From: Collimonas sp. OK607
Lineage (GTDB): Bacteria > Pseudomonadota > Gammaproteobacteria > Burkholderiales > Burkholderiaceae_D
Assembly (NCBI RefSeq): GCF_900111995.1
Contig: NZ_FOKF01000031.1
Location: 1-61,728 of the forward strand
Direction of reading: 5' to 3'
Length of the DNA: 61,728 bases
Positions 28,215 through 41,433 of this stretch are shown here, one piece after another; position 1 is the stretch's first letter; each line of letters starts with the position of its first letter. The notes under the pieces were generated by a model, which was given only the letters and a program-made list of their open reading frames with translations, searched no databases and was not told the DNA's origin. The position numbers were made by a program, and so were the translations under genes.

Positions 28215-28713
28215 CGAGGAATTCTTTCTATTTTTTGCAAAGCCATAAAGTGTTATGGAAGGTGACCCTGGAAACAGGGAAAATCAATAGGTTACAGATG
28301 CGCCATACATATTGGGATTATTTGTCGCAGAAGATGATACTTCTTTAGGCTTCGCCACAGAAAATGAGATTTTCTGTTTATCCCGTTATTGTAAGGATTT
28401 CCGGTGGCTTGACGTCAGTTTTCGGCGACGGCCATCTGCCTTGGCGCAGATGGCGAATACCGGTTATGTTGACTATCCGTCCCGGTCAATGTTGACGGCT
28501 CCAATACCAATTTGCTGGCATTGATCATGCACCCTGACCAACGGAAGACGCGGACGATGGGCTTAATTGCGACCGGCGGCCCAGCCAGCAGCGGACAGAT
28601 TCAGGCGCGAAATTACAAATGCCATTCTGTCGCCCGACCCGTGGGATAGCCTTTAGTTGAAATGTCGTCGCCCGCCAAAGGATCCAGGCTCCTTTGGCGG
28701 GACGATGCATGGT
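28215..28713. other. Intergenic region left of the polysaccharide locus
   Basis: About 500 bases without a supported gene. The only notable structure is a perfect 12-bp stem (CCCGCCAAAGGA at 28671-28682 with TCCTTTGGCGGG at 28690-28701), 13 bases beyond the stop codon of the DUF2334 gene on the minus strand. It probably ends that transcript although no T-run follows. The promoter of the MBL-fold gene should be near 28215-28300. Confidence 0.6.
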
Positions 28714-30372
28714 TTATGGATGCCCGAGTGTACTGGCATCAGTCCAGGTGTAGCCCAATCCCGTAATACCTTGAATTATGCTTTTGAAATCGCTGAATCC
28801 GGTCGTAACCAGCGGTGCCAGCGACGACTCCAGCCAGAATGGATGAAAGAAGAAAGATGCGACCCCATCCCTTACCACCAAAGCATATTGGGCATTCAGA
28901 TAAAGATCTTGCCACGTGTAGACCACGTTTGAATACGGATCGATAGCGCTGATGTTGTATTCAATGTTCCCCAGATTTTCCGGCACGATCCACTGGCCGT
29001 AGTAGTCTTGCTTGATGACGTAGGGGAAAAACTGTCCAACTGCAAAATCCTTGCCCTGGGCCAAGGTGAAGTTAGGAGTGTCGGAGGTGTAATACACGGC
29101 GCGCTGATAGGTTGTATTGAATACCTGCGGTATAGCCTTCGTGGACAGCGGTGATGACTGATAGTGCGGGGTCTCCCAGGCAAATGGAATGTAACCGTTA
29201 AGCAGTAATTCTGTCCTTCCCGCCAGGAGACGTCCCAATGCCCATGCAGTCGAATCTTCGGCCACCGGGGTATTCGCCACGGCATTCCAGAATTCAAAAT
29301 CATCGGCGCTGACCCCTGTATTCTTGTTCCGCATCGAATCGTATTGATGGGTATAACCATGCATCAGGATTTTTCCGCCTCGCGCCAGCGCGTAATTTAA
29401 CGATCTCTTGAGCGTCCCGGCCTGCGACAGCGGGACTTCTTCCGCAACCCCTCCGTTGTATACGCCTAGCGGGTCCATATAATGCGGGATGGTCGCAATC
29501 GAAAATGGAATATGTTTGCCCACCAAATAATCCGACAGCGTTTTCATTGTGCCGTAATCGACCAATGCATCGACATCTTCCAGTCGTACCAGAGCTTTAT
29601 GGCTTACCGGTTGATTGTCAGCGAATATGTCGTGCAATATATCGCACAGGACCAGATAGCGGTCACGAGGGCCGATGTATGACAATGGCATGTCAGCGAA
29701 ATACCAGAAATTGCCGGAGCGGATAATATACGGCGCCTGCGCGGACGTCTTGCTGTTTGTAATCGTTACCAGCGTCTGTGCCTTGGCCGTATCAATGATC
29801 TGCGTGATGCCGACGTCGGGATCGGCGTTTACTGTGTTGCTCGCAGCATCGTACGCATAGTACTTCACCATCGACTTACCCTTGTAGGAGACGGTGTCGA
29901 AGAAGCCCGGTGCCGGGTTGGTCGAGCTAGGCGCCGCATTCAGTCCCTGTAAGCCGTTAAAACTGAATCCGTAATGGGTATTGAAATTGTACGCCGCGTT
30001 CCATGCGAACTGCCACAGGTTGTATTTGAACCAGACGATGGTTTTCTGCGTGGCATTAACATCGTTAAGAAATACAGCCGGAATCGGATTGTTATAATAC
30101 GACCCCAAATAGAAAGTGGCTTGATAGGACTCGATTTTGCCGGCGCTATAGTTTTGTATCGGCACCAGATCAACGGTACTGTTGAAATGTCCAATCAGAT
30201 TACGCAGCATGATGGCGTAGGCAAATCCCAGCTTCTCATACTGATCAGGGGAAGGGGCATCGTACACAATCAATACTTTTATCGGTGTAGTCAGTAACTG
30301 CGCATTTGCCGGCGACGGGCTAAGAACAAACAGCTCGGCGATCAGTATAAGAATGGTTGCAATCTTTTTCAT
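28714..30372 (-). CDS. Exported DUF2334 (polysaccharide-deacetylase-like) protein
   Basis: 552 residues, signal peptide about 1-24 (ending ANA). The N-terminal 240 residues look like a flavodoxin/ThuA-like alpha/beta region (IKVLIVYDAPSP, NPIPAVFLNDV). The rest matches DUF2334, a divergent carbohydrate-esterase-4 barrel: RLEDVDAL (263-270) supplies the acidic metal site and HGYTH (338-342) the histidines; a late HPFW is also typical. DUF2334 proteins are thought to deacetylate polysaccharides. Next to an epimerase and an NfrB-type synthase, it would act on the exported polymer, which is inference. It is coupled by a four-base overlap to the small gene upstream. Confidence 0.82.
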   Translation of the reverse strand: MKKIATILILIAELFVLSPSPANAQLLTTPIKVLIVYDAPSPDQYEKLGFAYAIMLRNLIGHFNSTVDLVPIQNYSAGKIESYQATFYLGSYYNNPIPAVFLNDVNATQKTIVWFKYNLWQFAWNAAYNFNTHYGFSFNGLQGLNAAPSSTNPAPGFFDTVSYKGKSMVKYYAYDAASNTVNADPDVGITQIIDTAKAQTLVTITNSKTSAQAPYIIRSGNFWYFADMPLSYIGPRDRYLVLCDILHDIFADNQPVSHKALVRLEDVDALVDYGTMKTLSDYLVGKHIPFSIATIPHYMDPLGVYNGGVAEEVPLSQAGTLKRSLNYALARGGKILMHGYTHQYDSMRNKNTGVSADDFEFWNAVANTPVAEDSTAWALGRLLAGRTELLLNGYIPFAWETPHYQSSPLSTKAIPQVFNTTYQRAVYYTSDTPNFTLAQGKDFAVGQFFPYVIKQDYYGQWIVPENLGNIEYNISAIDPYSNVVYTWQDLYLNAQYALVVRDGVASFFFHPFWLESSLAPLVTTGFSDFKSIIQGITGLGYTWTDASTLGHP

Positions 30373-30629
30373 GATTGGCCACCTGCTTTTCCGGTTTGTT
30401 TACGCTCTTCATCATCACTGGATTTATTCTTCTTGACGTCGCCCTTATGATGATGACCGTGCTCTATATTTTTGCCAGGCACTTGGCCCGGCGCGACCAC
30501 AGTGTCAAAAGCTGGCTTCGGAGGGGGCGCGACGTTGACATTGCCTGCATTGGCGGATGCGGCAAAACCAATCACCGCGCCGATGCCAGCCATGAGAATG
30601 TGCGACCGTATTTTATGTGTAGATTTCAT
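30369..30629 (-). CDS. Small exported His/Lys-rich protein
   Basis: 86 residues. A signal peptide (about 1-28, ending SANA) is followed by a short, hydrophilic, disordered body with HGHHHKGDVKKNKSS near its middle and a Pro-rich PPPKPAF. No family is recognised. Its stop overlaps the start of the DUF2334 gene (ATGA), so the two are one translational unit. The histidine cluster could bind the metal required by the deacetylase-like partner; that is speculation. Confidence 0.62.
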   Translation of the reverse strand: MKSTHKIRSHILMAGIGAVIGFAASANAGNVNVAPPPKPAFDTVVAPGQVPGKNIEHGHHHKGDVKKNKSSDDEERKQTGKAGGQS

Positions 30630-31219
30630 GGTTTCCTCCCTTCGAGGATGAGTACTTCAGCGTCAGCCCACTCCTTTAAACCGGGCTGGTATATCGCATC
30701 CGGATACTAGCAATGCAAATTTTGAATGTGGGATATTGCCGACTAGCGCGCGCGCCATCGCTGTTTGATTGCGCGCGCGTCAAAACAGTGCGAAGAAAAT
30801 GACGAGGAACGGGGCCTGATCGACCTGCATCCGAGGGATTTCTTGATAGTAATCATGATCCGTCTTTCTGCGATGCAATCTCGGGATGTGGTAGAAAACG
30901 CGCTGATTATTTCTTATGAGAATTCTTGTGAGAACGTCCGTTTTCATGTCACAAAAAGTTAGCTTAAAGTATAGGCGAAAGTTCTATTTTAGCTAGGACT
31001 CCATGCGACATCTTGCGCAAAAATCGTCGTCGATATTGTTGTTTTCCGTCGGGTAATAAATCTGCTTTTCTCCAAGAAAAAATTTGGAGTATGCTCGTCA
31101 TGACGACAACTCTGCGCGCCCGTTTTTTATAAATTGATGAAGAGCGAGCAGGCTTGTTGCCGCATAAAAATAGAATCCCGACTGAAAAATATACCGCGCC
31201 ATTTTTAACAGGGAAGCAA
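30630..31219. other. Divergent regulatory region
   Basis: About 590 bases between the minus-strand DUF2334 unit and the plus-strand gsp/wec/nfr genes. No supported gene. It contains two alternating GC tracts, GCGCGCGCGC at 30746-30755 and GCGCGCGCG at 30771-30779, which can pair as a hairpin or adopt an unusual helix. The rest is AT-richer and probably holds promoters for both directions. Confidence 0.5.
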
Positions 31220-31456
31220 ATGCGTAATGCAATATTCCCCGCCATTCGACATCGCTACGCGGCTGTTACGCAATGCGGCTTCGCACTGATCGAAATCATG
31301 GTTGCGGTGCTTGTGGGGATGCCCGGCGGCATCGATTGTTCCTAAGCTGTTGGGGCGCAGCGATGATGCGCGGATTTTTCGACGCGCTTGCCTGGTCATT
31401 GATCAAGCGCGGATCCAACCATGGCGCGATGCTGTGGACCAGGGAGCAATAGGAAC
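31220..31456 (+). pseudogene. Frameshifted gspG-like pseudopilin gene
   Basis: The ATG at 31220 has a good AGGGAAGC site and opens a prepilin: after a short basic leader comes CGFALIEIMVAVLVGM, with the G|F cleavage site and Glu at +5. The frame then stops at 31343-31345. In a neighbouring frame from about 31315 the text continues as SIVPKLLGRSDDARIFRRA, which matches the segment after the pilin helix in GspG (VPKxxGRxDxAR). One indel near 31310-31320 would explain this. The usual remaining 80-90 residues of GspG are missing before the GspC-like gene starts at 31457. So this is a broken, truncated type II secretion pseudopilin gene. Confidence 0.68.
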
Positions 31457-32092
31457 ATGGGCGGCTATTTCAACAGAATTATCGGCAAAAATATGCGCCG
31501 CCATAGCGCGCGTCTGCCCGCGCTCGTCAGTCTGCCCTTATTCATGCTGCTATGTGCCTGCGTCGCATATTGGGGCATGACGCTGGTCAAGCAGCCGCTG
31601 CGTGCGGTTGCGCCACCGCCGCAAGCAGAGGCGCCACAGATTGACATTTCACAGGCGGCCGGATTGTTTGGCGATCATGGGAGCTTGGCTGCCAGCAATT
31701 ACCGGCTGACGGGTGTGGTAGTCGCGCAAAATGCTGCGGAGAGCGTGGCTATCTTGCGCGCAGAGGGCCAGCCCGCGCAAGTGGTCCGGGTTGGCAAAGA
31801 AGTGCAGTCGGGGACTAGCATCAAGGAAGTGCATAAGACCTATGTGCTGTTGTTGGAAGGCGGCATTCTCAAACGGCTAGTCCTGCCCGAGCACGCCGAG
31901 ACCAAACTGGATATGGTGTCAGCGGGTCCGCCTGCGGCGCCGGCGTTTCCGCCACCGCCTGGAGAGCCGCAGGCTCTACCTGCGGCGCCAGCAATCTCAC
32001 CTGCGGCATCCGCAATCTCACCTGAGGCATCCGCAATCTCATCTGCGGCGCCTGCGACACGACCGGGTAAACCGCATCACGCCAACCGCTAG
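31457..32092 (+). CDS. Orphan GspC-like inner membrane protein
   Basis: 211 residues: a basic cytoplasmic start, one membrane helix (about 21-41), a periplasmic proline-rich linker, and an HR (homology region) domain at about 82-145 (YRLTGVVVAQNAAESVAIL, VVRVGKEVQSGTSIKEV), as in GspC/PulC of type II secretion. There is no PDZ domain; instead the C-terminus is Ala/Pro/Ser-rich with a 21-bp DNA repeat. In a type II system GspC links the inner-membrane platform to the secretin, but no gspD, E, F or L is present here. It may be a relic or may have been adopted by the polysaccharide exporter downstream. AGGAAC precedes the ATG. Confidence 0.72.
   Translation: MGGYFNRIIGKNMRRHSARLPALVSLPLFMLLCACVAYWGMTLVKQPLRAVAPPPQAEAPQIDISQAAGLFGDHGSLAASNYRLTGVVVAQNAAESVAILRAEGQPAQVVRVGKEVQSGTSIKEVHKTYVLLLEGGILKRLVLPEHAETKLDMVSAGPPAAPAFPPPPGEPQALPAAPAISPAASAISPEASAISSAAPATRPGKPHHANR
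31991..32053 (+). repeat. Three 21-bp in-frame repeats in the GspC-like gene
   Basis: The unit GCAATCTCACCTGCGGCATC (plus one C) occurs three times at 31991, 32012 and 32033 with a few changes, encoding AISPAAS-type heptads in the C-terminal tail. Copy number could vary without changing the frame. Confidence 0.85.
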
Positions 32093-32282
32093 TCGTTTTT
32101 ATCGAATCAAAGCAAGGCATTTATACAGGCGTCGCTTGTTATAAAGGATTTTATTGGCAAAAATTACATTCATCCTCTAGACTGGCAAAAGGGTCACAAT
32201 TAATTACAAATAATTACAGTTGTACTCGCGGTAAAAGCAGCATTGCATCTCTGGATTCATGCTCAATGAGTAAGGGGGACTT

Positions 32283-33473
32283 ATGAAAATTCTTTCCATA
32301 TTCGGCACTCGCCCTGAAGCCATCAAGATGGCGCCGGTACTCAAGAGTCTCGCATCAGAAGCGGAAATCGAGTCCCTAGTCTGTACCACCGGGCAACACC
32401 GCAGCATGCTGCGCCAGGTACTGGACGTTTTCGAATTGCAGGCTGATTTCGATCTGGACCTGATGCTGCCGAACCAGACATTGAATGGCCTGAGTTCCCG
32501 CATTTTCGCTGCGCTCGATCCCTTGATCGAACAAGTAAAGCCGGATCGCGTGCTGGTGCATGGAGACACGACGACGGCAATGGTGGGCGCCGTTGCCGCG
32601 TTCCATCGCGGGATTCCGGTTGCGCATGTCGAGGCTGGATTGCGCACCGGCAATTTGAAGCAGCCCTGGCCTGAAGAGATGAATCGCAGGATGGTCGACA
32701 TCGTCAGCGACTTGCTGTTTGCACCGACCGAAGGATCGAAACAAAACCTGTGCAGGGAAAATCTGGCCGGCAAGATCTATATTACCGGCAATACGGTGAT
32801 CGATGCCTTGATGGCTTCCAGTACGCGGATTTCGCTTGACGACGAATTGCGCAGCGGGCTCGACGCGCAATTTCCTTTCCTCCAGCCGGACCGCAAGATA
32901 CTGCTGGTTACCGGTCACCGGAGAGAAAATTTCGGACCCGGCTTTCAAAATATCTGCGCGGCGCTGGCCGAGCTGTCAGCGCGTGCCGACATTGACATCG
33001 TCTATCCGGTGCATCTCAATCCCAATGTGCAGCAACCGGTTTCGGCTGCCCTGTCTCATCTGCGCAACGTGCATCTGATTGCTCCGCTGGATTACCTCTC
33101 GTTCGTACGTTTGATGCAGCGCGCGCATGTCATTCTCACTGACTCCGGCGGAGTGCAGGAAGAGGCGCCATCGCTGGGCAAGCCGGTTCTGGTGATGCGC
33201 GACGTCACCGAAAGGCCGGAGGCGGTTCTCGCAGGCACGGTCGAACTGGTAGGTACCGAGGCGGAGCGCATCGTGACGGCCGTCCACAGACTGTATGACG
33301 ACGATGCCGCATGGAAGTCGATTAGCCTGCGCCACAATCCCTATGGAGATGGCTACGCGTCACAACGTATCGTGGCGGCCCTGCTCAATCGGACCGTAAC
33401 GGAATTCGCTGCGAAGCCGGAAGAGCTGCCTCCGGTCGCAATAGATGGTCAGGAGGATTTCGTGGTTATATAG
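32283..33473 (+). CDS. wecB: UDP-N-acetylglucosamine 2-epimerase (non-hydrolysing)
   Basis: 396 residues, converting UDP-GlcNAc to UDP-ManNAc. Family motifs: N-terminal FGTRPEAIKMAPVL, VHGDTTTAM, HVEAGLRTGN, the LLVTGHRRENFG loop and the late TDSGGVQEEAPSLGKPVL. Length is typical (about 375-400). A strong AAGGGGGA site precedes the start. It lies 63 bases before nfrB. In E. coli, WecB is the source of UDP-ManNAc for the NfrB-made polymer, but there it is encoded in the enterobacterial common antigen cluster; here it sits in the same locus. Confidence 0.94.
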   Translation: MKILSIFGTRPEAIKMAPVLKSLASEAEIESLVCTTGQHRSMLRQVLDVFELQADFDLDLMLPNQTLNGLSSRIFAALDPLIEQVKPDRVLVHGDTTTAMVGAVAAFHRGIPVAHVEAGLRTGNLKQPWPEEMNRRMVDIVSDLLFAPTEGSKQNLCRENLAGKIYITGNTVIDALMASSTRISLDDELRSGLDAQFPFLQPDRKILLVTGHRRENFGPGFQNICAALAELSARADIDIVYPVHLNPNVQQPVSAALSHLRNVHLIAPLDYLSFVRLMQRAHVILTDSGGVQEEAPSLGKPVLVMRDVTERPEAVLAGTVELVGTEAERIVTAVHRLYDDDAAWKSISLRHNPYGDGYASQRIVAALLNRTVTEFAAKPEELPPVAIDGQEDFVVI

Positions 33474-33536
33474 CCTCCCATGTTTTGAGCTTTCCTTTCA
33501 TTGCAAAGTCTCCCTACATTGATTTTTCCGGGCACC

Positions 33537-35660
33537 ATGACAACCTACTGGCCACATTTCCTTGCCGATTACTATACGCTGCTGGAACTTACCACCTGCA
33601 TTGTCGCGGTATTGTTTCTGGTGTCAGCGGCTGACGATCTGTTTGTCGACGCGTGGTACTGGATCCGCCAGGCTTACCGTCAGCTGACCAGAACGCGCAC
33701 CTATCGGCCGGTCACGGAGCGGCAACTGGAGGAACACGCCGAGCAGCCGCTTGCGATCATGGTGCCGGCGTGGCTAGAGTATGATGTGATCGCCCAAATG
33801 ATCGAAAACATGGTGACGGTTCTCAACTACCACAACTATGTTATTTTCGTCGGAACCTATGTCAATGATGCACGCACCATAGCAGAGGTAGAGCGGATGC
33901 GTCGCCGCTACAAGCAATTGCATCGGGTCGAAGTGCCCCATGCTGGCCCTACCTGCAAGGCGGACTGCCTGAATTGGGTCATCAACGCGATTTTCCTGCA
34001 TGAAAAGAAACGCGGTTATCAATTTGCCGGCGTCATTCTTCACGATAGCGAAGACGTGTTGCATTCTCTCGAACTTAAATTTTTCAATTACCTGCTGCCG
34101 CGCAAGGACATGATCCAGCTTCCCGTAATGTCGCTCGAACGCAAATGGTCCGAGTTGGTGGCAGGAACCTATATGGATGAGTTCGCTGAATCCCATGCCA
34201 AGGACATCGTTGTCAGGGAAAGTATCAGCGGCATGGTGCCTTCGGCTGGCGTCGGCACCTGTTTTTCGCGACGCGCCCTGCAGGCACTGGCCAACGACAA
34301 TCAAAACCAGCCATTCAACACCGACACGCTGACTGAAGACTATGACATTGGCGCACGTTTGGCGAGCATAGGGATGACATCCATATTTGCGCGTTTTCCC
34401 GTCCACTTTTCGGTCAGTCGCAAAACATGGTTCGGTTTCGGAAAAGAATGCCAGGTCACGCTCAAGATGCCGCTATGCGTGCGCGAGTATTTTCCCGACC
34501 AGTTCAAGACGGCCTATCGGCAAAAAACGCGCTGGGTGTTGGGCATCAGCCTGCAAGGGTGGGCGCAAATCGGCTGGAGCGGTTCGCTTGCAAACAAATA
34601 CTTGCTGTTTCGGGACCGCAAAGGCATCGTCACCGCCCTCGTCAGCGTTCCCGCCTATCTGCTGCTGTTGCAGTTCCTGCCATTCTGGGTCGCCGACCAT
34701 TTCGGATTCTGGAAGCTCACCCCCAGGTCGCTGCTGGAATCGCAAACATGGCTCCACTATGTGCTCTACGCCAATCTGACCGCACTGGCGTTGCGTGCCT
34801 CCCAACGCGCCTATTTCGTCAGTCGCCTGTACGGACCGGTGCATGGATTGCTTTCCGCGCCGCGCATGATAGTTGCCAATTTTATTAATTTCGTAGCAGT
34901 GGCTCGGGCCTGGAAGTTGTTCCTGGGGCACCTGCTGTTCGGGAAACGCCTGGCATGGGACAAGACCATGCACGATTTCCCCTCCGACGACCGGCTTTTG
35001 CGCACGCGCCAACGCCTCGGTGAACTGCTGGTTTCGTGGCAAGCGATCACCGAGGAAGACATGAAAAAGGGATTGCAGGAACACACGGAGATGCACCTTC
35101 CCCTTGGGCATATATTAGTGTCCCGCGGCTATATCGACGAAGAAACCCTGGCGGAAGCGATCGCCTTCCAATCCGATCTGTCGCGCGCTGAAATCAGGAT
35201 CGCAGCCTCCTTGCCGGCCCCGGTATCGCTTGATATGTGTATAAGGTTGGGCGCGATGCCGATCGGGCAGGACGCCAATGGCAAACCGATTGTCGCAGTC
35301 GGCAAGCCTCTTGCCGAAGATGCGCTCAGGGAACTTGCCTCAGCATTTGGCACACAGCCCGTGCAACATATCGCGCGGGACAGCGAAATAGTTTCAGGAT
35401 TGCGCTTGGCTATGGCAGAAATGCATGCTAAAACCGTCAAAAGAGAATTTAAAAGTGCGTCGCTCCTTGGTGAACTGCTGATCCAGAATGGAAAAATCAC
35501 GCGGGAAACGCTGGAGCAGGCGATGCAACACTACCTCTCTCCGCAACATGGGCGTATTGGCGACTTTCTCGTCGGTCGGGGGCTTGTGTCGCGCGACGTT
35601 ATCGAAGAAACTGTTCAGCAGCAAATGGCCTTACTCAGATTAGCATTGGGAGTCGCATGA
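33537..35660 (+). CDS. nfrB: NfrB-type glycosyltransferase with two MshEN-like c-di-GMP modules
   Basis: 707 residues. An N-terminal membrane helix (about 15-32) is followed by a family 2 glycosyltransferase domain with D170-S-E-D (donor/metal site), TEDYD (266-270) and QKTRW (329-333), the marks of processive synthases. Further membrane helices lie at about 362-385, 405-425 and 440-465. The cytosolic C-terminus holds one clear MshEN module (about 491-545: RLGELLVSWQAITEEDM, LGHILVSRGYIDEETL) and a second, shorter one (about 641-696: LGELLIQNGKITRETL, IGDFLVGRGLVSRD). E. coli NfrB polymerises an aminosugar (ManNAc) glycan under c-di-GMP control. The start at 33537 is the first ATG. It overlaps nfrA by four bases. 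Confidence 0.88.
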   Translation: MTTYWPHFLADYYTLLELTTCIVAVLFLVSAADDLFVDAWYWIRQAYRQLTRTRTYRPVTERQLEEHAEQPLAIMVPAWLEYDVIAQMIENMVTVLNYHNYVIFVGTYVNDARTIAEVERMRRRYKQLHRVEVPHAGPTCKADCLNWVINAIFLHEKKRGYQFAGVILHDSEDVLHSLELKFFNYLLPRKDMIQLPVMSLERKWSELVAGTYMDEFAESHAKDIVVRESISGMVPSAGVGTCFSRRALQALANDNQNQPFNTDTLTEDYDIGARLASIGMTSIFARFPVHFSVSRKTWFGFGKECQVTLKMPLCVREYFPDQFKTAYRQKTRWVLGISLQGWAQIGWSGSLANKYLLFRDRKGIVTALVSVPAYLLLLQFLPFWVADHFGFWKLTPRSLLESQTWLHYVLYANLTALALRASQRAYFVSRLYGPVHGLLSAPRMIVANFINFVAVARAWKLFLGHLLFGKRLAWDKTMHDFPSDDRLLRTRQRLGELLVSWQAITEEDMKKGLQEHTEMHLPLGHILVSRGYIDEETLAEAIAFQSDLSRAEIRIAASLPAPVSLDMCIRLGAMPIGQDANGKPIVAVGKPLAEDALRELASAFGTQPVQHIARDSEIVSGLRLAMAEMHAKTVKREFKSASLLGELLIQNGKITRETLEQAMQHYLSPQHGRIGDFLVGRGLVSRDVIEETVQQQMALLRLALGVA

Positions 35661-37882
35661 GAAAATATCCGGTTTCGCTGCATTTCCTAGGCAGCAGTCT
35701 TGCCGCCGTCACCTTGCTTGTGGCCGCTGGCGCCGCTGCCGCAGAGCGACCGCTTAACGGCCAGGCATATCGGATTGCCGATGAGGCATACAAGGCTTTT
35801 GCACAAGGAGAATATGATATCGCGGCGGCAAAGGCACGCGAGGCGATCCGCTTGCGGCCGGATGTCGCGCGCCTTCGCGACCTGCTGGAAAAGGCTGAGT
35901 TGGCGCGTCGCACGGCGCAGGCGCAGCTTGCCTTCAACGCTTCCGCGGCCTCTTACCAGGCCCTGGAGCGCCGCGACTTTGCGCAGGCCGTAGAGCAGGC
36001 GCGCAAGGCTGTGGATTATCTACCCGCCCTGCCTGCATTTCACATCGCCCTGATCAATGCGCTGGTCGCGAACGGGGAGCTGGAGCAAGCGGAGCAAGCA
36101 GCCTCTGACACGATCAAGCCAGAAACGCCATCGAGCGAAGCGCTGCTCCTGCGTGGCGCCATACGCCAGCAACGTGGCGCGGTCGAACCTGCGCAAGCAG
36201 ACTTCGATCAAGCCCTGTCGGGCGCCGGCCCGGCTAACCGGCGTGGCATCCGGCTGGTGGCTGCCGACGCCGCGTTGGCCAATGGCGATCCACAGCGGGC
36301 GCTGCGCCTGCTCGAACCTCTGCAAGGCGGCGAGGACAAGGAAGCAACAGTGCGGCGTGCGCTGGCGACAATCATGCTTGGCCGATCCGACCCAAGCCGT
36401 GCCGCCCCGGCGTTCAGCTTCCCGCTTGTCAGTTGCACATCAGGACCGGACCTGGTCTCGGCATGCGACATCAAACCCGGCGCGGCGTCCGCGGATCCGG
36501 GATTCCTGCTTGCCGATCAAGCGTATCGCGCTTTCGCCAGCAAGAACTACGCTCTGGCGAGCAGCAAGGCCGGTGAAGCGATCCAATTGTCTCCTCGCGA
36601 TCTTGGCTATCGCCGTTTGCACGTGCAGGCGCTGAGCGCGCAGGGATTGCTGGCCGAGGCGGAACAGGCTGCCAGTACTTCCCTGGCCGACTTTGGAAAC
36701 GATGCCGACATGCTGCTGGCGCGCGCCGATATTCGAAAACGCCGCGGAAACCAGGTTGCTGCCAAGGCGGATTATGCTGCCGTGCTGAACGCACCGGACA
36801 AAACGCCCAGGACCGAGATCGCGGCACTGATCGGGCTTGGCCGGAAAGAAGACGCGCGTGCGCGTCTGGCAGAGGTAAGCCGCTCTCCAGAGAAAGGATC
36901 CGAGCTTGAGCTGGCCTATCTTGCCCTTCAGGCAGGAGATAACCAGGATGCGCTCGACCTGTTCAGCCGTGCGGAGGCACAGGGCACGCTCACCGATGCC
37001 GCCCGCCACGACGCAGCCTACGCTGCCGCGCACCAGGGGCGCAATGAACAGGCAATCGGGTACCTCAACCGGACCGTCGACGCGGCGCAAGCAGGCCATC
37101 TTGCGCTGGATGCACAGCAGCTCTACGACGTGCGACGCGAAACCGCTGACCTGGAGCGCCGCTGGGGGGTGCGTGCAACACTGAGCGATAGAGCCGTTGC
37201 TGCGGCTGGGACCGGGGTGCCGCATGGCGGCACGATCGATGGCAAGGACATCGCCGCTGAAGCATACTGGCGTCCGTTTGGAGTGCAGGATGGGGCGCTG
37301 ATGGAAATCTATGGCCGGATCAATGAAACAATAAGCGGCGGATCGGGTGTCCCGACCGGAACTGCCACAGCCCAGGCTGCGTTCGGCGCACGCGTGAAAC
37401 CGTTCAGCGAGGTCAACGCCATACTGGCGCTCGAGCGCCTGGTGCCATTGGGGGACGCTACCAGCGGCGACTGGCTTGCCCGGGCTGGCTTCTCTTCGGA
37501 CACCGGACTGGATTTGCACGCGGATCAAACCAACTGGCTGAGCACGCACGTGTATGCTGAAGCGGGGCACTACTTCCAGCATCCGCAAAATTATGCCACC
37601 GTTGAAGGGCAATTGGGGCGTAGTTATCTACTTGGCGCAAGCGGGTCGACCCTGGTCCTGTTTCCGCACCTCGTGATGGGCGCAGATTATGATTCGACCC
37701 TCATTGAGCACGACAAAAAAGCAATCGGAAGCGGCATCGGAACCAGTATGCGTTACTGGTTCCGGCAGGATTACTATAATGCGCCGCGCTCCTTTGTCGA
37801 CCTGTCGCTGCAGTACCGCTGGCGTATTGCCGGGGACAAGCGGGCCGAAGGCTGGTTCATCCGGCTCAGCGCCTCGTATTGA
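35657..37882 (+). CDS. nfrA: NfrA-like outer membrane TPR/beta-barrel protein
   Basis: 741 residues: signal peptide (about 1-29), then TPR-like helical repeats over most of the periplasmic part (e.g. AYKAFAQGEYDIAAAKAREA near residue 45 and AYRAFASKNYALASSKAGEA near 295). The C-terminal 200 residues form the beta-rich NfrA_C region (AAEAYWRPFGVQDGALMEIY, ending GWFIRLSASY with a terminal aromatic as in outer membrane barrels). In E. coli NfrA is the outer-membrane exporter of the NfrB-made glycan and the receptor of phage N4. The ATGA overlap with nfrB shows translational coupling. It is shorter than E. coli NfrA (about 990 residues). Confidence 0.85.
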   Translation: MRKYPVSLHFLGSSLAAVTLLVAAGAAAAERPLNGQAYRIADEAYKAFAQGEYDIAAAKAREAIRLRPDVARLRDLLEKAELARRTAQAQLAFNASAASYQALERRDFAQAVEQARKAVDYLPALPAFHIALINALVANGELEQAEQAASDTIKPETPSSEALLLRGAIRQQRGAVEPAQADFDQALSGAGPANRRGIRLVAADAALANGDPQRALRLLEPLQGGEDKEATVRRALATIMLGRSDPSRAAPAFSFPLVSCTSGPDLVSACDIKPGAASADPGFLLADQAYRAFASKNYALASSKAGEAIQLSPRDLGYRRLHVQALSAQGLLAEAEQAASTSLADFGNDADMLLARADIRKRRGNQVAAKADYAAVLNAPDKTPRTEIAALIGLGRKEDARARLAEVSRSPEKGSELELAYLALQAGDNQDALDLFSRAEAQGTLTDAARHDAAYAAAHQGRNEQAIGYLNRTVDAAQAGHLALDAQQLYDVRRETADLERRWGVRATLSDRAVAAAGTGVPHGGTIDGKDIAAEAYWRPFGVQDGALMEIYGRINETISGGSGVPTGTATAQAAFGARVKPFSEVNAILALERLVPLGDATSGDWLARAGFSSDTGLDLHADQTNWLSTHVYAEAGHYFQHPQNYATVEGQLGRSYLLGASGSTLVLFPHLVMGADYDSTLIEHDKKAIGSGIGTSMRYWFRQDYYNAPRSFVDLSLQYRWRIAGDKRAEGWFIRLSASY

Positions 37883-37922
37883 GTAAGCGATGCGCCGGCG
37901 TCCCTGATCAAGGAAGCGAACC

Positions 37923-38846
37923 ATGAAGATGCACCTCGCCGTTTGCAATGTGAAGTCGAGGACAAATTTGCGCAGGTTCAATCGGCGCCGCATATTAGGC
38001 ATGCTGGTGGTGACAACGCTCTGCGGTTGCCAGGACCCGCTGCAAGCCAGGCTCAAGCAATCTCCGCCGACGCGCGTGCGAGGAATCGTGTGGCAGCTCG
38101 ATGACCAGACGCTGCATCCTATGGGAAACTGGGAAAGGCTAGGGGCGCGTGAGCTGCTCATCCAATGGACGGCCGTGGATGGCGTCAACTACCTGCCAGG
38201 CGCCGAGGGCCGCGCTGCCGCGAGATTTCCTGATTGGCAACGGATTGCCGCTGAACCTTGGGCGAACAAAGTGATTGTCGGATTGGCAGGCAAGTTCGAC
38301 GAAACGGCCGCCCGCGCAAATGTTGCCGCGTTAATTGAAGAGTCGCGCAAGCTCGCCGCGTTGCCGACACCGCTGCATGTGGCGGGTTGGTTCTTCCCAC
38401 TGGAGGTCGATTCGAGCTGGTCCGATGCAGCCCGCCTTGGTCCGCTGCTGGCACATTTGCCGCGGCCACTGTGGATCAGCGTGTACGACAGCGCCAATGT
38501 CGGCGCCGAAACGCTGTCGCAATGGCTTGCTTCCTGGCTACCGCCAGACGTCGGCATTTTCTTTCAGGATGGCGTCGGCATCCACGCGCGCGAGGCAAGC
38601 GTGGCCAGGCATTATTCAGACGTGCTGGCTGCTCGCTTTGGAAAACAGCGAGTACGTATCATCGCCGAAGCGTTTCGTCCGCGCCAGGGAGGAGGATTCC
38701 GACCGGTTACAGCTGCAGAACTCAAGCCGCAACTTGCCGCTTATGACGGCTTTTCCGTTTACTTGTTCGATGGCCCGCATTACGTGAGCCGCGACCTGGT
38801 AAATGAGCTGGTCGGTTCTGAAAATGCTGCTGAAAACGGGGGCTGA
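37923..38846 (+). CDS. DUF4434-like TIM-barrel lipoprotein
   Basis: 307 residues. A long basic N-terminus leads to a hydrophobic segment ending in LCGC, so C36 is a possible lipidated residue, though Cys at -3 makes the lipobox unusual. The body looks like a glycoside-hydrolase-type barrel: GIVWQLDDQTLHPM at the start, ELLIQWTAVDG, VAGWFFPLEVDSSW and DVGIFFQDGVGIHAREAS, the pattern I link to DUF4434. It follows nfrA by 40 bases, in the place of ybcH in the E. coli nfrA-nfrB-ybcH locus. It may trim or bind the polymer at the cell surface; the activity is untested. Confidence 0.68.
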   Translation: MKMHLAVCNVKSRTNLRRFNRRRILGMLVVTTLCGCQDPLQARLKQSPPTRVRGIVWQLDDQTLHPMGNWERLGARELLIQWTAVDGVNYLPGAEGRAAARFPDWQRIAAEPWANKVIVGLAGKFDETAARANVAALIEESRKLAALPTPLHVAGWFFPLEVDSSWSDAARLGPLLAHLPRPLWISVYDSANVGAETLSQWLASWLPPDVGIFFQDGVGIHAREASVARHYSDVLAARFGKQRVRIIAEAFRPRQGGGFRPVTAAELKPQLAAYDGFSVYLFDGPHYVSRDLVNELVGSENAAENGG

Positions 38847-39037
38847 GGCTCACTGGAAAACCGCAAGGGACAATCTGCAGGGCCAGCCCCTTGCCGCAGA
38901 TACCATGAAGGACTACTCAAGTCAGCACCCTTAACCTGGAACGGAAGTTGTTAGAGCCGTTATTAGTAAGGGGCACTGAAACGAACGCACCTGAGATAGT
39001 CCTTCAGGGCAGCAGGAGCGGATTGTTATCAGCTACC

Positions 39038-39952
39038 TTACAACACGTTATTAAATGTCGACCACAGCGGTTGCGTGGACGGCACCAGGTCTTCTTTGCC
39101 ATACCACCAGAAATAGCCGCCGATATAGTTTTTTACCGGTGGCTTCAAGGTGTAGTAGCGCGTCAGGTAGGCGGCCTTGTTGGTAGTGGTAGTGCCGGTT
39201 TCGCCAAATCCGACTTTGGAGTTCGGAAACATGGCCGACAGCTTCGTAAACACCGCATTCCAATCAGGAACCAAGCCGTTGCAGTCCTCTTCGTAATAGC
39301 TGACCAGCACATAGTCAAGCCCGCTTTTCATGCGCGCCGGAATATTCGCATTCGCCCAGGTGAACATCTCGTTCGCGGGATTGGACCAGCAGTCCTGATT
39401 GTAGTACAGCGTCAGAGCGGCAACCTTGCCTTGCCCTTTGACCAGATCGTAAGCACCAGTCATCTTGGCGACCACATCGGCGTTTTTGCCCAGCCATTCC
39501 CCATTGATTTCGTTGCCGACTTCCCAAATGTTCACGACGTCGCCAAGGGCTCCCGTGTACTCGCTTGTGCGGTTCAGGTATTGCTGAACGGTGTATTGAT
39601 CCATCGCCGACGAGTCAAGGATCTCACCCATCACATAACTGACTTTGTTGATCGCCACAGTCGCGTTACGGTAGCCGGATGCAGGCTGCCATTCGTCGAA
39701 CACAATGCGGGTGGTTGGCTTCTTCGCCAGTTTGGACAGAGCGGTGGTAGTGGCGGTCAATCCCGATATATCGTCGATGGTCACGCCGTACATTTGCGGA
39801 TTGGCGTAACTGACTGCGGTAGTAGTGGTGGTGGTGGTCGTTGTCGTCGGCGCTGGCGGCTGATTTCGCGATCCCCATGCGTTCGCCTCACCTTGTAAAA
39901 CCATCCCGAGCATTGCTCCTAAAATGATGATGACAGATTTCAATTTATACAT
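39038..39952 (-). CDS. Secreted GH-A-clan-like glycoside hydrolase
   Basis: 304 residues. A signal peptide (about 1-25) is followed by a run of ten threonines (36-45) acting as linker, then a barrel domain. N147-E148 in WEVGNEING fits the acid/base Asn-Glu of clan GH-A and E251 in GFGETG fits the nucleophile on strand 7; WWYG near the C-terminus is a common substrate-aromatic site. Family number cannot be assigned by eye (GH39/GH53-like possibilities). It is convergent with the nfr genes. A role in cutting the exported polymer is inferred from location. Confidence 0.78.
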   Translation of the reverse strand: MYKLKSVIIILGAMLGMVLQGEANAWGSRNQPPAPTTTTTTTTTTAVSYANPQMYGVTIDDISGLTATTTALSKLAKKPTTRIVFDEWQPASGYRNATVAINKVSYVMGEILDSSAMDQYTVQQYLNRTSEYTGALGDVVNIWEVGNEINGEWLGKNADVVAKMTGAYDLVKGQGKVAALTLYYNQDCWSNPANEMFTWANANIPARMKSGLDYVLVSYYEEDCNGLVPDWNAVFTKLSAMFPNSKVGFGETGTTTTNKAAYLTRYYTLKPPVKNYIGGYFWWYGKEDLVPSTQPLWSTFNNVL

Positions 39953-40421
39953 TACTATTCCATAAGATTAAGAAAGAATTCATTATTTACAACCGTTAGT
40001 CGCCGCGTCCGATGCGAACCTCTACCCACATCGGGCACCATCGGATACGCCGAATTCAGGTCGGCGTGAACCATCGCTGCTTGATTCATGTGCGAACGGG
40101 CAGCGTCGTTCGACCAAGATACGGCTGGTATCTTGGCGAAGAAGAAATATCTAAAAAAACGTCTTATACGGCTGTGAGCAATAAATCGGAATTTATTGCC
40201 AGGCCTGAATCGACCTTGAAGCTGGTCGACCAGATAACATACCTCTCTACCCGATGCGCGCACGCATACAACCTTGGTGCGCATGCGAATTCTTGCGCGA
40301 TCCAAAAGTTCTATGATCCACGGAAACAGGAGCGCTTTGGCGCCACCGAACAAGATCGTGGCGACAGCCACAGACCATGGGCGACACGGGCATCAAGGCT
40401 ACACAGCGTAAATGTCGGGGA
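39953..40421. other. Gene-poor stretch right of the glycosidase gene
   Basis: About 470 bases upstream of the glycosidase gene with no supported coding region. Frames on both strands are open in places but carry no domain and no ribosome binding site. A perfect AAGGAGGT on the minus strand near 40435-40442 is not followed by any usable start codon. Probably decayed DNA plus the glycosidase promoter. Confidence 0.4.
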
Positions 40422-40724
40422 TTACTTTATTCGCGACCTCCTTTCTTCTGTTGTGATATTTGGCGTGCCGGGTGGCCCGGCGTCTTCAACTACCGTCAGT
40501 GGAATTGAATCGTTTACCAATGCAAAATAGCCCGCTAATTCCCCGAAGTCCGCATGGAATAGTAGGCTGGCGCAGCTGAAATGGTCTCCGTAGAGATCTT
40601 TGGCTTGAGAGTGCAGAAACGTAGTCAGGTCAGAAGCGCCGGAAGAAAATCCAGCTATCCGACGCAACTCGTCCGCTGCCGTGGTCGGAATTTGCGCAGT
40701 GAAGCGAGCATCCCGCCAAGTCAT
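40422..40724 (-). pseudogene. Truncated GNAT-acetyltransferase-like ORF
   Basis: 100 residues. MTWRDARFTAQ, GASDLTTFLHSQAKDLYGDH and FGELAGYFALVNDSIPL resemble the N-terminal half of the small GNAT proteins that often act as toxins (a short leader, a helix with FLH..A.., then a strand giving G(Y)F.L). The conserved acetyl-CoA loop and the C-terminal strands are missing; the frame ends in a charged, non-similar tail. The gene is therefore probably truncated. Its ATG overlaps the stop of a 69-codon ORF upstream (ATGA), as in toxin-antitoxin pairs. Confidence 0.4.
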
Positions 40725-40930
40725 GCCGCAAACAGCTTTGCAGTTGCACGCGTAAGCGAGTGCAAGGAAGCTGCTTTAACCGCCGGCCATTCAGCGTTCT
40801 TCCCTGTTTTCGTTGATCGAGCAACAGAGACGCTTGCCAATTGGCAAGAACTTGCATTTCCCACAATCTCCTTCACAGCTTGTGAGAACCGGCCTTGGGA
40901 ACAATAGTGGACTCCATATTGTTTTTCCAT
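40721..40930 (-). CDS. Small ORF coupled to the GNAT-like ORF
   Basis: 69 residues: MEKQYGVHYCSQGRFSQAVK, then a helical stretch and AASLHSLTRATAKLFAA at the end. No family is recognised and it is not a ribbon-helix-helix (DUF1778) antitoxin by eye. There is no Shine-Dalgarno sequence, but a TATACT just upstream could be a -10 element of a near-leaderless transcript. The four-base overlap with the next ORF is the main support for it being real. Confidence 0.35.
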   Translation of the reverse strand: MEKQYGVHYCSQGRFSQAVKEIVGNASSCQLASVSVARSTKTGKNAEWPAVKAASLHSLTRATAKLFAA

Positions 40931-41433
40931 CGGCGAAGTATACCGAACAATGCTGCCTCAGGAATTTATTCTAGCTATCGGTCAGGACGGGGCGATCAAT
41001 GTTTGGCCAAAAATCTTGCCAAAATTTGCTGGAGGATGCGGGAGGATGCGGGAGAATCTGCATGGATACAGGTGTTTTTTAAAATTCGGCAGAAAATTTG
41101 AATGCAGAATGAATGTTCCCTTTGGGCAATAACATTGCTTCGGAGTTTGAGAGCGTGGTTGAAGCGATTCGCCACAACCTGAGCAGAGTTTTCTTTCTAT
41201 TAACAACTTCCTGTCAAAATACAGACTAGACAGCGAGGATTGTAGATATCTGTGGGGAAGTCCATATTTATTCGGTAGCTATTGCCTCCTGGCATTTATG
41301 CAAGTTAATGCAGTCTCATTTATCTAGGCAAAAATCCCACCTTCCACGGCAGTAATTCCAACTTCTACGTCACTTTAGTAAAGCTAGTAGTTTTTCGGTG
41401 TTTTCATTTTCCGTAAGCGCGCCTACAATGTGC
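40931..41433. other. Gene-poor stretch left of liuR
   Basis: About 500 bases, AT-richer. A minus-strand frame (40982-41206) begins with KLCSGCGESLQPRSQTPKQC, a CxxC...CxC zinc-ribbon-like start seen in some small mobile-element proteins, but then loses similarity; I treat it as a fragment. At 41031-41055 GGAGGATGCG is repeated. The right end carries the liu promoter. Confidence 0.4.

Follow-up and report, generated by a model that had tools for sequence, protein, structure and literature searches.

A mobile Nfr-type exopolysaccharide unit in Collimonas with a putative N-deacetylase and a glycosidase-like protein

The window analyzed here is the whole 61,728-nucleotide contig NZ_FOKF01000031.1 of the soil bacterium Collimonas sp. 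OK607 (assembly GCF_900111995.1), and our subject is a group of genes within it built around nfrB and nfrA. We consider it somewhat better than an even bet that these genes form a complete, horizontally moving, cyclic di-GMP (c-di-GMP)-controlled Nfr-type exopolysaccharide unit equipped with its own N-deacetylase and trimming glycosidase. On the plus strand run wecB, nfrB, nfrA and the gene of a YbcH/DUF4434 lipoprotein; a gene for an exported DUF2334 protein diverges on the left, and one for a secreted glycosidase-like (glycoside hydrolase, GH) protein faces inwards on the right (Table 1). The accessory pair, DUF2334 and GH, beside the Nfr machinery is the new part. An earlier note on this DNA, made from the sequence alone, had proposed that genes for precursor supply, polymerization, export, modification and cutting are gathered with nfrBA. 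This core claim is now well supported, in that DUF2334 and GH genes recur beside nfrB elsewhere.

In the pathway we envisage, WecB would supply UDP-N-acetylmannosamine (UDP-ManNAc), and NfrB would polymerize it across the inner membrane upon binding of c-di-GMP to its MshEN domain. NfrA may then take the chain through the periplasm and outer membrane, with the assistance of the YbcH-type lipoprotein. The exported DUF2334 protein would de-N-acetylate part of the chain, in the metal-dependent manner of NDST1 and Agd3, to yield a partly cationic polymer, and the secreted GH-A-type enzyme would cut the chain, for trimming or release. Analogy with poly-N-acetylglucosamine (PNAG), Pel and galactosaminogalactan suggests such a combination of partial de-N-acetylation, for charge and adhesion, with glycosidase trimming. 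We infer the enzyme activities, the substrate, the sugar and the order of events, taking the NfrB product to be the substrate of both enzymes and to be ManNAc-based; deacetylation and cutting are read from fold, catalytic residues and linkage.

The Nfr glycan is the proposed primary receptor of N4-like phages, and its chemistry is unsolved in the Nfr papers. A dedicated deacetylase and glycosidase would be direct tools for working out this chemistry, since the glycan would be their substrate. If our interpretation is correct, phage-receptor glycans would be tied to the logic of PNAG, Pel and galactosaminogalactan, polymers whose deacetylation matters for biofilms. It would also provide a functional hypothesis for DUF2334, a domain barely named in the literature searched.

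Linkage and mobility of the unit

The search for relatives of the DUF2334 protein covered 84,980 species, each represented by a single genome. The query alignment held four proteins (that of the window, two from the same genus and one from another family), all from nfr loci, and neighborhoods cover the best 80 of the 345 relatives. Around these 80 genes, hidden Markov models (HMMs) matched nfrB at 58 loci, nfrA at 57, wecB at 48, a YbcH-type gene at 44 and the GH gene at 27; nfrB is present at all 27 GH-bearing loci. Five of the 58 nfrB matches are partial (L070, L079, L090, L125 and L133; L125 scores just 45 bits), and the 57 for nfrA include matches of 69-86 bits in L063 and L076 that we rejected as linkage, as they are matches to the tetratricopeptide repeat (TPR). 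Counted by assembly, 58 of 63 bear a DUF2334 copy linked to nfrB or nfrA; two of the remaining five have wecB only, on short contigs, the locus of one (Collimonas OK412) is truncated by a contig end, and two have none of these genes. Among the 22 DUF2334 loci without nfrB, three (L067, L071 and L117, on short contigs) have wecB or nfrA, a YbcH-type gene is present in one (L138), and the other 18 are orphans (for example, L063, L064, L066, L072, L080, L101 and L118). The linkage is not due to chance, because fewer than one of the 80 loci would be expected to show it even with an nfr locus in every genome (an estimate that assumes one such locus per genome, a 20-kb stretch and a genome of ~6 Mb).

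As a control, we looked at other DUF2334 proteins from the same order, and found nfrB or wecB at none of 10 loci; two of these stretches span just 12 and 14 kb, and one (L150) has a 24.5-bit match to the nfrA model. The control open reading frames (ORFs) are shorter, at 254-383 aa, and the subfamily HMM matched one of them, weakly, which indicates that they belong to another subfamily.

The view from NfrB is different. NfrB itself is patchy, found in 4 of 15 genomes of the genus, 16 of 399 of the order and 18 of 398 of the phylum. Of the 29 NfrB loci that come from other genera (L030-L058; L030 was detected with the NfrA model, the other 28 with the NfrB model), 21 have wecB within the stretch and one (L041) has DUF2334, which is therefore dispensable to the Nfr system. 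The GH profile hit 2 of the 399 genomes of the order, namely that of the window and G363, the genome of L041, in both cases at such loci. The neighborhood comparison suggested in the earlier note thus turned up the co-occurrence it looked for, with wecB, DUF2334 and GH at NfrB loci elsewhere. Its notion of a betaproteobacterial version of the system fared less well: this is not the form of the locus that is usual among betaproteobacteria, and the DUF2334-nfr pairing is also seen outside that group, in Halopseudomonas (L127). On a quick maximum-likelihood tree of 86 NfrB proteins, the DUF2334 label requires seven changes, at least six of them forced by starred branches. Loci selected by way of DUF2334 and by way of NfrB are combined in this tree, and long branches occur in it; five partial NfrB proteins and one duplicate genome were dropped from it. 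The only thing we take from it is that the DUF2334-nfrB pairing seems to have arisen, or been lost, repeatedly.

The unit is a horizontally moving insert of ~13 kb. In 8 of 15 Collimonas genomes (G002, G003, G006, G007, G009, G010, G011 and G013), the site is empty, and the genes for a metallo-beta-lactamase-fold protein and an acyl-CoA dehydrogenase, which flank the unit in the window, lie 0.6-0.9 kb from each other. Elsewhere the two genes are separated by 3.7 kb (G012), 7.1 kb (G014), 7.6 kb (G008) or 53 kb (G005); they lie on different contigs in G004, and neither is found in G001. In G006, G007 and G009, the window site is empty and the unit is located elsewhere, with flanks that resemble neither those of the window nor one another, except for one 46-bp match (the left flank of the G009 unit is missing at a contig end). 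The core genes are kept together at different sites in these three genomes and in that of the window. By eye, no clear target-site duplication was seen at the insert ends. The site itself, between 28214 and 41456, appears to be a hot spot for insertion, the spacing in G005, G008, G012 and G014 being 3.7-53 kb.

A mobile unit might, of course, be less integrated than we propose: an ordinary nfr-wecB-ybcH locus, with DUF2334 and GH genes that co-travel on islands and target some other glycan, such as a host, fungal or soil polymer. The facts that the unit is an insert, that orphan DUF2334 loci exist and that both proteins are exported are all in line with this. However, the pairing recurs at several places in the NfrB tree and in many gene orders (the five commonest account for 38 loci, with DUF2334 before, inside, after or divergent from the nfr run), and 14 of the 18 orphans occur in assemblies that also bear an nfr-linked copy. 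We therefore regard independent targets as fairly unlikely, and favor a common substrate for the accessory pair and the Nfr machinery.

The DUF2334 and glycosidase-like proteins

The exported protein matches PF10096 (DUF2334) at 143.9 bits, against a curated cut-off of 26; all 25 members of its alignment match the family too. Its AlphaFold2 model has a mean predicted local distance difference test (pLDDT) score of 89.8, and in a Foldseek search of the PDB the top rank goes to human NDST1 (E 1.3e-11, 605 columns), ahead of ThuA-like and amidotransferase-type proteins, ArnD and CE4 enzymes, with CE4-fold acetylxylan esterases also among the matches. NDST1 is described with D319 as base, D320/H389/H393 as metal ligands and H529 as acid (PMC10864358), and Agd3 with D377, D378/H510/H514, R613 and H668 in turn, along with a stretch resembling amidotransferases in the N-terminal domain (PMC7229062); PelADA, a CE26 deacetylase, is compared likewise (PMC13254593). 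The window protein offers candidates in the same order, E265, D266, H338, H342, R424 and H510, assigned (R424 and H510 included) by order and spacing, without superposition. This set (E-D, HxxxH, R, H) is identical wherever ungapped, each position being ungapped in 87 or 88 of 89 DUF2334 ORFs.

Like Agd3 (CE18), PelADA and NDST1, the DUF2334 protein begins with an alpha/beta domain and continues with a CE-type domain that carries a base-metal pair, an HxxxH motif, a catalytic His and, in R424, a candidate for the Arg. It differs from them in its lack of a C-terminal domain, in the absence of any relative in sequence searches of the PDB, Agd3 included, and in its putative base. The HxxxH, downstream Arg and catalytic His that mark CE18 are all there, and invariant when ungapped, but the Asp-Asp base/metal pair of that family is Glu-Asp in every ungapped homolog. 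Owing to this Glu and the missing C-terminal domain, we do not file the protein under CE18. On the strength of the model and the invariant residues, it is probably a polysaccharide N-deacetylase. The CE4-like metal site that the earlier note had read from the sequence agrees with the predicted fold and the invariant D266/H338/H342 set.

Whether the acetyl group is N-linked deserves comment, since the DUF2334 protein might remove O-acetyl instead of N-acetyl groups from the Nfr glycan. The acetylxylan esterases among the fold matches would fit this, as would the Glu in place of Asp at the base and the O-acetyltransferase genes of some nfr loci (PMC8669469, PMC8669472). Yet the structure ranked first is that of an N-deacetylase whose two domains come in the same order, and the Pfam-scanned genes of the insert contain no acetyltransferase domain, which makes O-deacetylation unlikely in our judgment.

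For the GH protein, the AlphaFold2 model (mean pLDDT 79.5; residues 9-50 below 50) forms a barrel of eight strands; E148 sits where strand 4 ends and E251 at strand 7, as in clan GH-A. Both residues are kept in all ungapped homologs (31 of 31 and 30 of 30, respectively). Sequence comparison gives no family: the protein has no Pfam or NCBIfam match at E 0.01 and no significant match to GH53, GH72, GH128 or GH39, a sequence search of the PDB produced chance-level matches only, and GH53 was weakly matched by 3 of 15 homologs (best 6.4e-4). Foldseek ranks GH72 Gas2 first, with GH128, GH39 (PslG) and others among the top matches (TM-scores by query of ~0.5-0.57). The predicted model therefore points to clan GH-A geometry without a family by sequence. 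PslG and other members of the clan are likewise secreted TIM barrels encoded beside a polysaccharide synthase (PslG TM-score by query 0.53-0.57); unlike them, the window protein lacks a sequence-based family, and its first structural match is GH72 Gas2. Among the 50 matches listed from a viral structure library, there was no N4-type tailspike.

Several points weigh against a dedicated deacetylase and glycosidase. Linkage was established with query rows that all come from nfr loci and on the best 80 of 345 relatives, 18 of which have no nfr gene nearby; starting from NfrB, DUF2334 was met at 1 of 29 loci outside the genus. The G007 unit lacks the GH gene (and the gspC-like gene described below). 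The putative base of the DUF2334 protein is Glu instead of Asp, the TM-score to NDST1 by query length is just 0.35, and PDB sequences include no relative. The activities and the chemistry of the glycan are, throughout, what sequence and models would predict. On balance, we still prefer an Nfr unit with its own modifying and cutting enzymes. A bolder proposal, which we put forward tentatively, is that the long DUF2334 proteins, built like NDST1 and Agd3, would constitute a new bacterial family of polysaccharide N-deacetylases that convert the Nfr glycan into cationic poly-mannosamine by partial de-N-acetylation. The product would be a class of biofilm polymer alongside PNAG, Pel and galactosaminogalactan, accompanied by a new family of dedicated glycosidases.

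The Nfr core and related systems

Window NfrB is 40% identical to E. coli NfrB. It carries the processive GT2 residues together with an MshEN domain (Pfam, 7.4e-09), the combination that marks the Nfr (NGR) system; the equivalents of E. coli D169, D267, W330, L490 and G491 are conserved, and L537 is replaced by Ile. NfrA has both TPR matches and the NfrA_C domain. An alignment of 13 sequences that includes the lipoprotein and YbcH has 22 invariant columns. The lipoprotein also matches NCBIfam PRK09936, a model of the same length as YbcH (296), at 39 bits, below the model cut-off of 344; its match to Pfam DUF4434 is 22 bits, below the cut-off of 30. By this sequence evidence, the gene is a homolog of ybcH, the third gene of the E. 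coli K-12 operon nfrB-nfrA-ybcH. We thus rejected the idea, implied in the earlier note, that it is a locus-specific addition relative to E. coli.

Nor is the epimerase gene beside nfrBA a novelty, as that note had implied: the wecB-nfrBA linkage was published in 2021 (PMC8669469, section 11; PMC8669472, section 9). NfrB homologs have been reported in 406 species beyond E. coli, with frequent linkage to wecB-like and diguanylate cyclase genes and with acetyltransferases in the Simplicispira locus (PMC8669469); in Achromobacter, nfrA, nfrB and wecB are clustered with a BcsB homolog and O-acetyltransferases (PMC8669472), and an Acinetobacter PGR locus contains NfrB- and WecB-like genes (PMC12507263). 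UDP-ManNAc-based synthesis, c-di-GMP control and export are all proposed in the Nfr papers. These Achromobacter, Simplicispira, Pseudomonas and Acinetobacter loci resemble the window unit in pairing an nfr-type synthase with a wecB homolog, often with further genes; BcsB, O-acetyltransferase or GGDEF genes are described for them, and the available text does not name DUF2334 or GH (PMC8669472, PMC8669469, PMC12507263). In the two mBio Nfr texts, the sole mention of a deacetylase or hydrolase type concerns phage deacetylase tailspikes, and Ralstonia, Burkholderia and Collimonas do not appear. At the level of titles and abstract openings, with supplements and most subscription papers beyond reach, no report of DUF2334-nfr pairing was found. 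The E. coli NGR system (nfrB-nfrA-ybcH plus wecB) shares the MshEN synthase, NfrA, the YbcH homolog and WecB; the window unit, in contrast, has its own wecB, adds DUF2334, GH and a small exported protein, bears a lipobox on its YbcH homolog, and is mobile. In two other loci, a BcsB-like gene (PF03170, around cut-off) adjoins nfrB (L069, 11680-13920; L033, 10627-12879); in the window, no such gene lies between wecB and nfrB.

The genome contains a second WecB-like gene, which we considered as a possible reason for the wecB of the unit to be redundant. This was rejected: the other copy shares 29% identity with E. coli WecB, against 57% for that of the unit, sits among O-antigen-type genes and is probably FnlC-like.

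That NfrB of this clade uses another sugar than E. coli NfrB, so that the product is not the NGR glycan, is very unlikely in our estimation: window NfrB does score higher with NF012033 (1062 bits) than with NF008411, the model of E. coli NfrB (636 bits, below the cut-off of 1170), and shares 40% identity with the E. coli protein, whose glycan is itself unsolved, but wecB adjoins nfrB here and lies nearby at most NfrB loci outside the genus, and the GT residues are conserved.

Gene inventory and minor genes

All genes named in the earlier note were recovered at the coordinates it gave, and its description of wecB, nfrB and nfrA as one run, with a 4-base nfrB/nfrA overlap and a DUF4434-like lipoprotein gene behind, agrees with coordinates and profile matches; the divergent exported DUF2334 protein and the convergent secreted GH-A-like hydrolase were borne out by coordinates and models. 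Its inventory was incomplete in two places, having overlooked the genes of the 86-aa exported protein and the GspC-like protein. Compared with two or three other Collimonas genomes, dN/dS is 0.09-0.24 for DUF2334, wecB, nfrB, nfrA, the lipoprotein and GH, which indicates that these six main genes are real and under selection; it is 0.22-0.47 for the gspC-like and small exported protein genes.

Table 1. Features of the Nfr-type unit in the window
Feature	Position	Strand	Basis
Inserted block, ~13.1 kb	28244..41374, ends approximate		Alignment with other Collimonas genomes; between metallo-beta-lactamase-fold gene and MerR-type gene; flanks contiguous elsewhere in Collimonas
Exported DUF2334 protein, probable polysaccharide N-deacetylase	28714..30372	-	PF10096 6.5e-42; AlphaFold2 model; Foldseek
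Small exported Pro/His-rich protein, 86 aa	30369..30629	-	ORF; 4-base overlap with start of DUF2334 gene; no Pfam match
GspC-like protein, probably second copy of type II secretion gene	31421..32092	+	PF11356 2.1e-10
wecB, UDP-GlcNAc 2-epimerase	32283..33473	+	TIGR00236, 465 bits; 57% identity to E. coli WecB
nfrB, GT2 synthase with MshEN c-di-GMP domain	33501..35660	+	NF012033, 1062 bits
nfrA, TPR and outer-membrane domain	35657..37882	+	PF13283 (NfrA_C) 6.5e-49
YbcH/DUF4434 protein, lipobox-like LCGC	37923..38846	+	PRK09936 8e-10; alignment with E. coli YbcH
Secreted glycosidase-like (GH) protein, (beta/alpha)8 barrel, E148 and E251	39038..39952	-	AlphaFold2 model; Foldseek

Small proteins with a PPPxP stretch, PG and often HHHK directly precede DUF2334 genes at other loci as well (e.g., L069, L081 and L092). 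Such an ORF was found before 33 of 87 DUF2334 ORFs with a crude filter (the one in L124 looks spurious, and L029 and L059 are one genome); neither of two such proteins tested matched a Pfam family.

We considered whether the GspC-like protein might serve the glycan machinery as a linker in the envelope, and rejected this, as another gspC-like gene of the same genome (G000:C69) lies among gsp-type genes, their names read by eye, and the G007 unit has none. With a T2SSC model of three sequences, the gene was found in no other nfr locus, and its role in the glycan unit is doubtful. A gspG-like remnant, also read by eye, lies just upstream of it inside the insert (region 31154-32092, plus strand). 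Finally, directly upstream of the GH gene there is a candidate ORF of 138 aa (39955-40371, minus strand), overlapped by an ORF on the opposite strand; it is kept in G006, with a dN/dS of 0.34.

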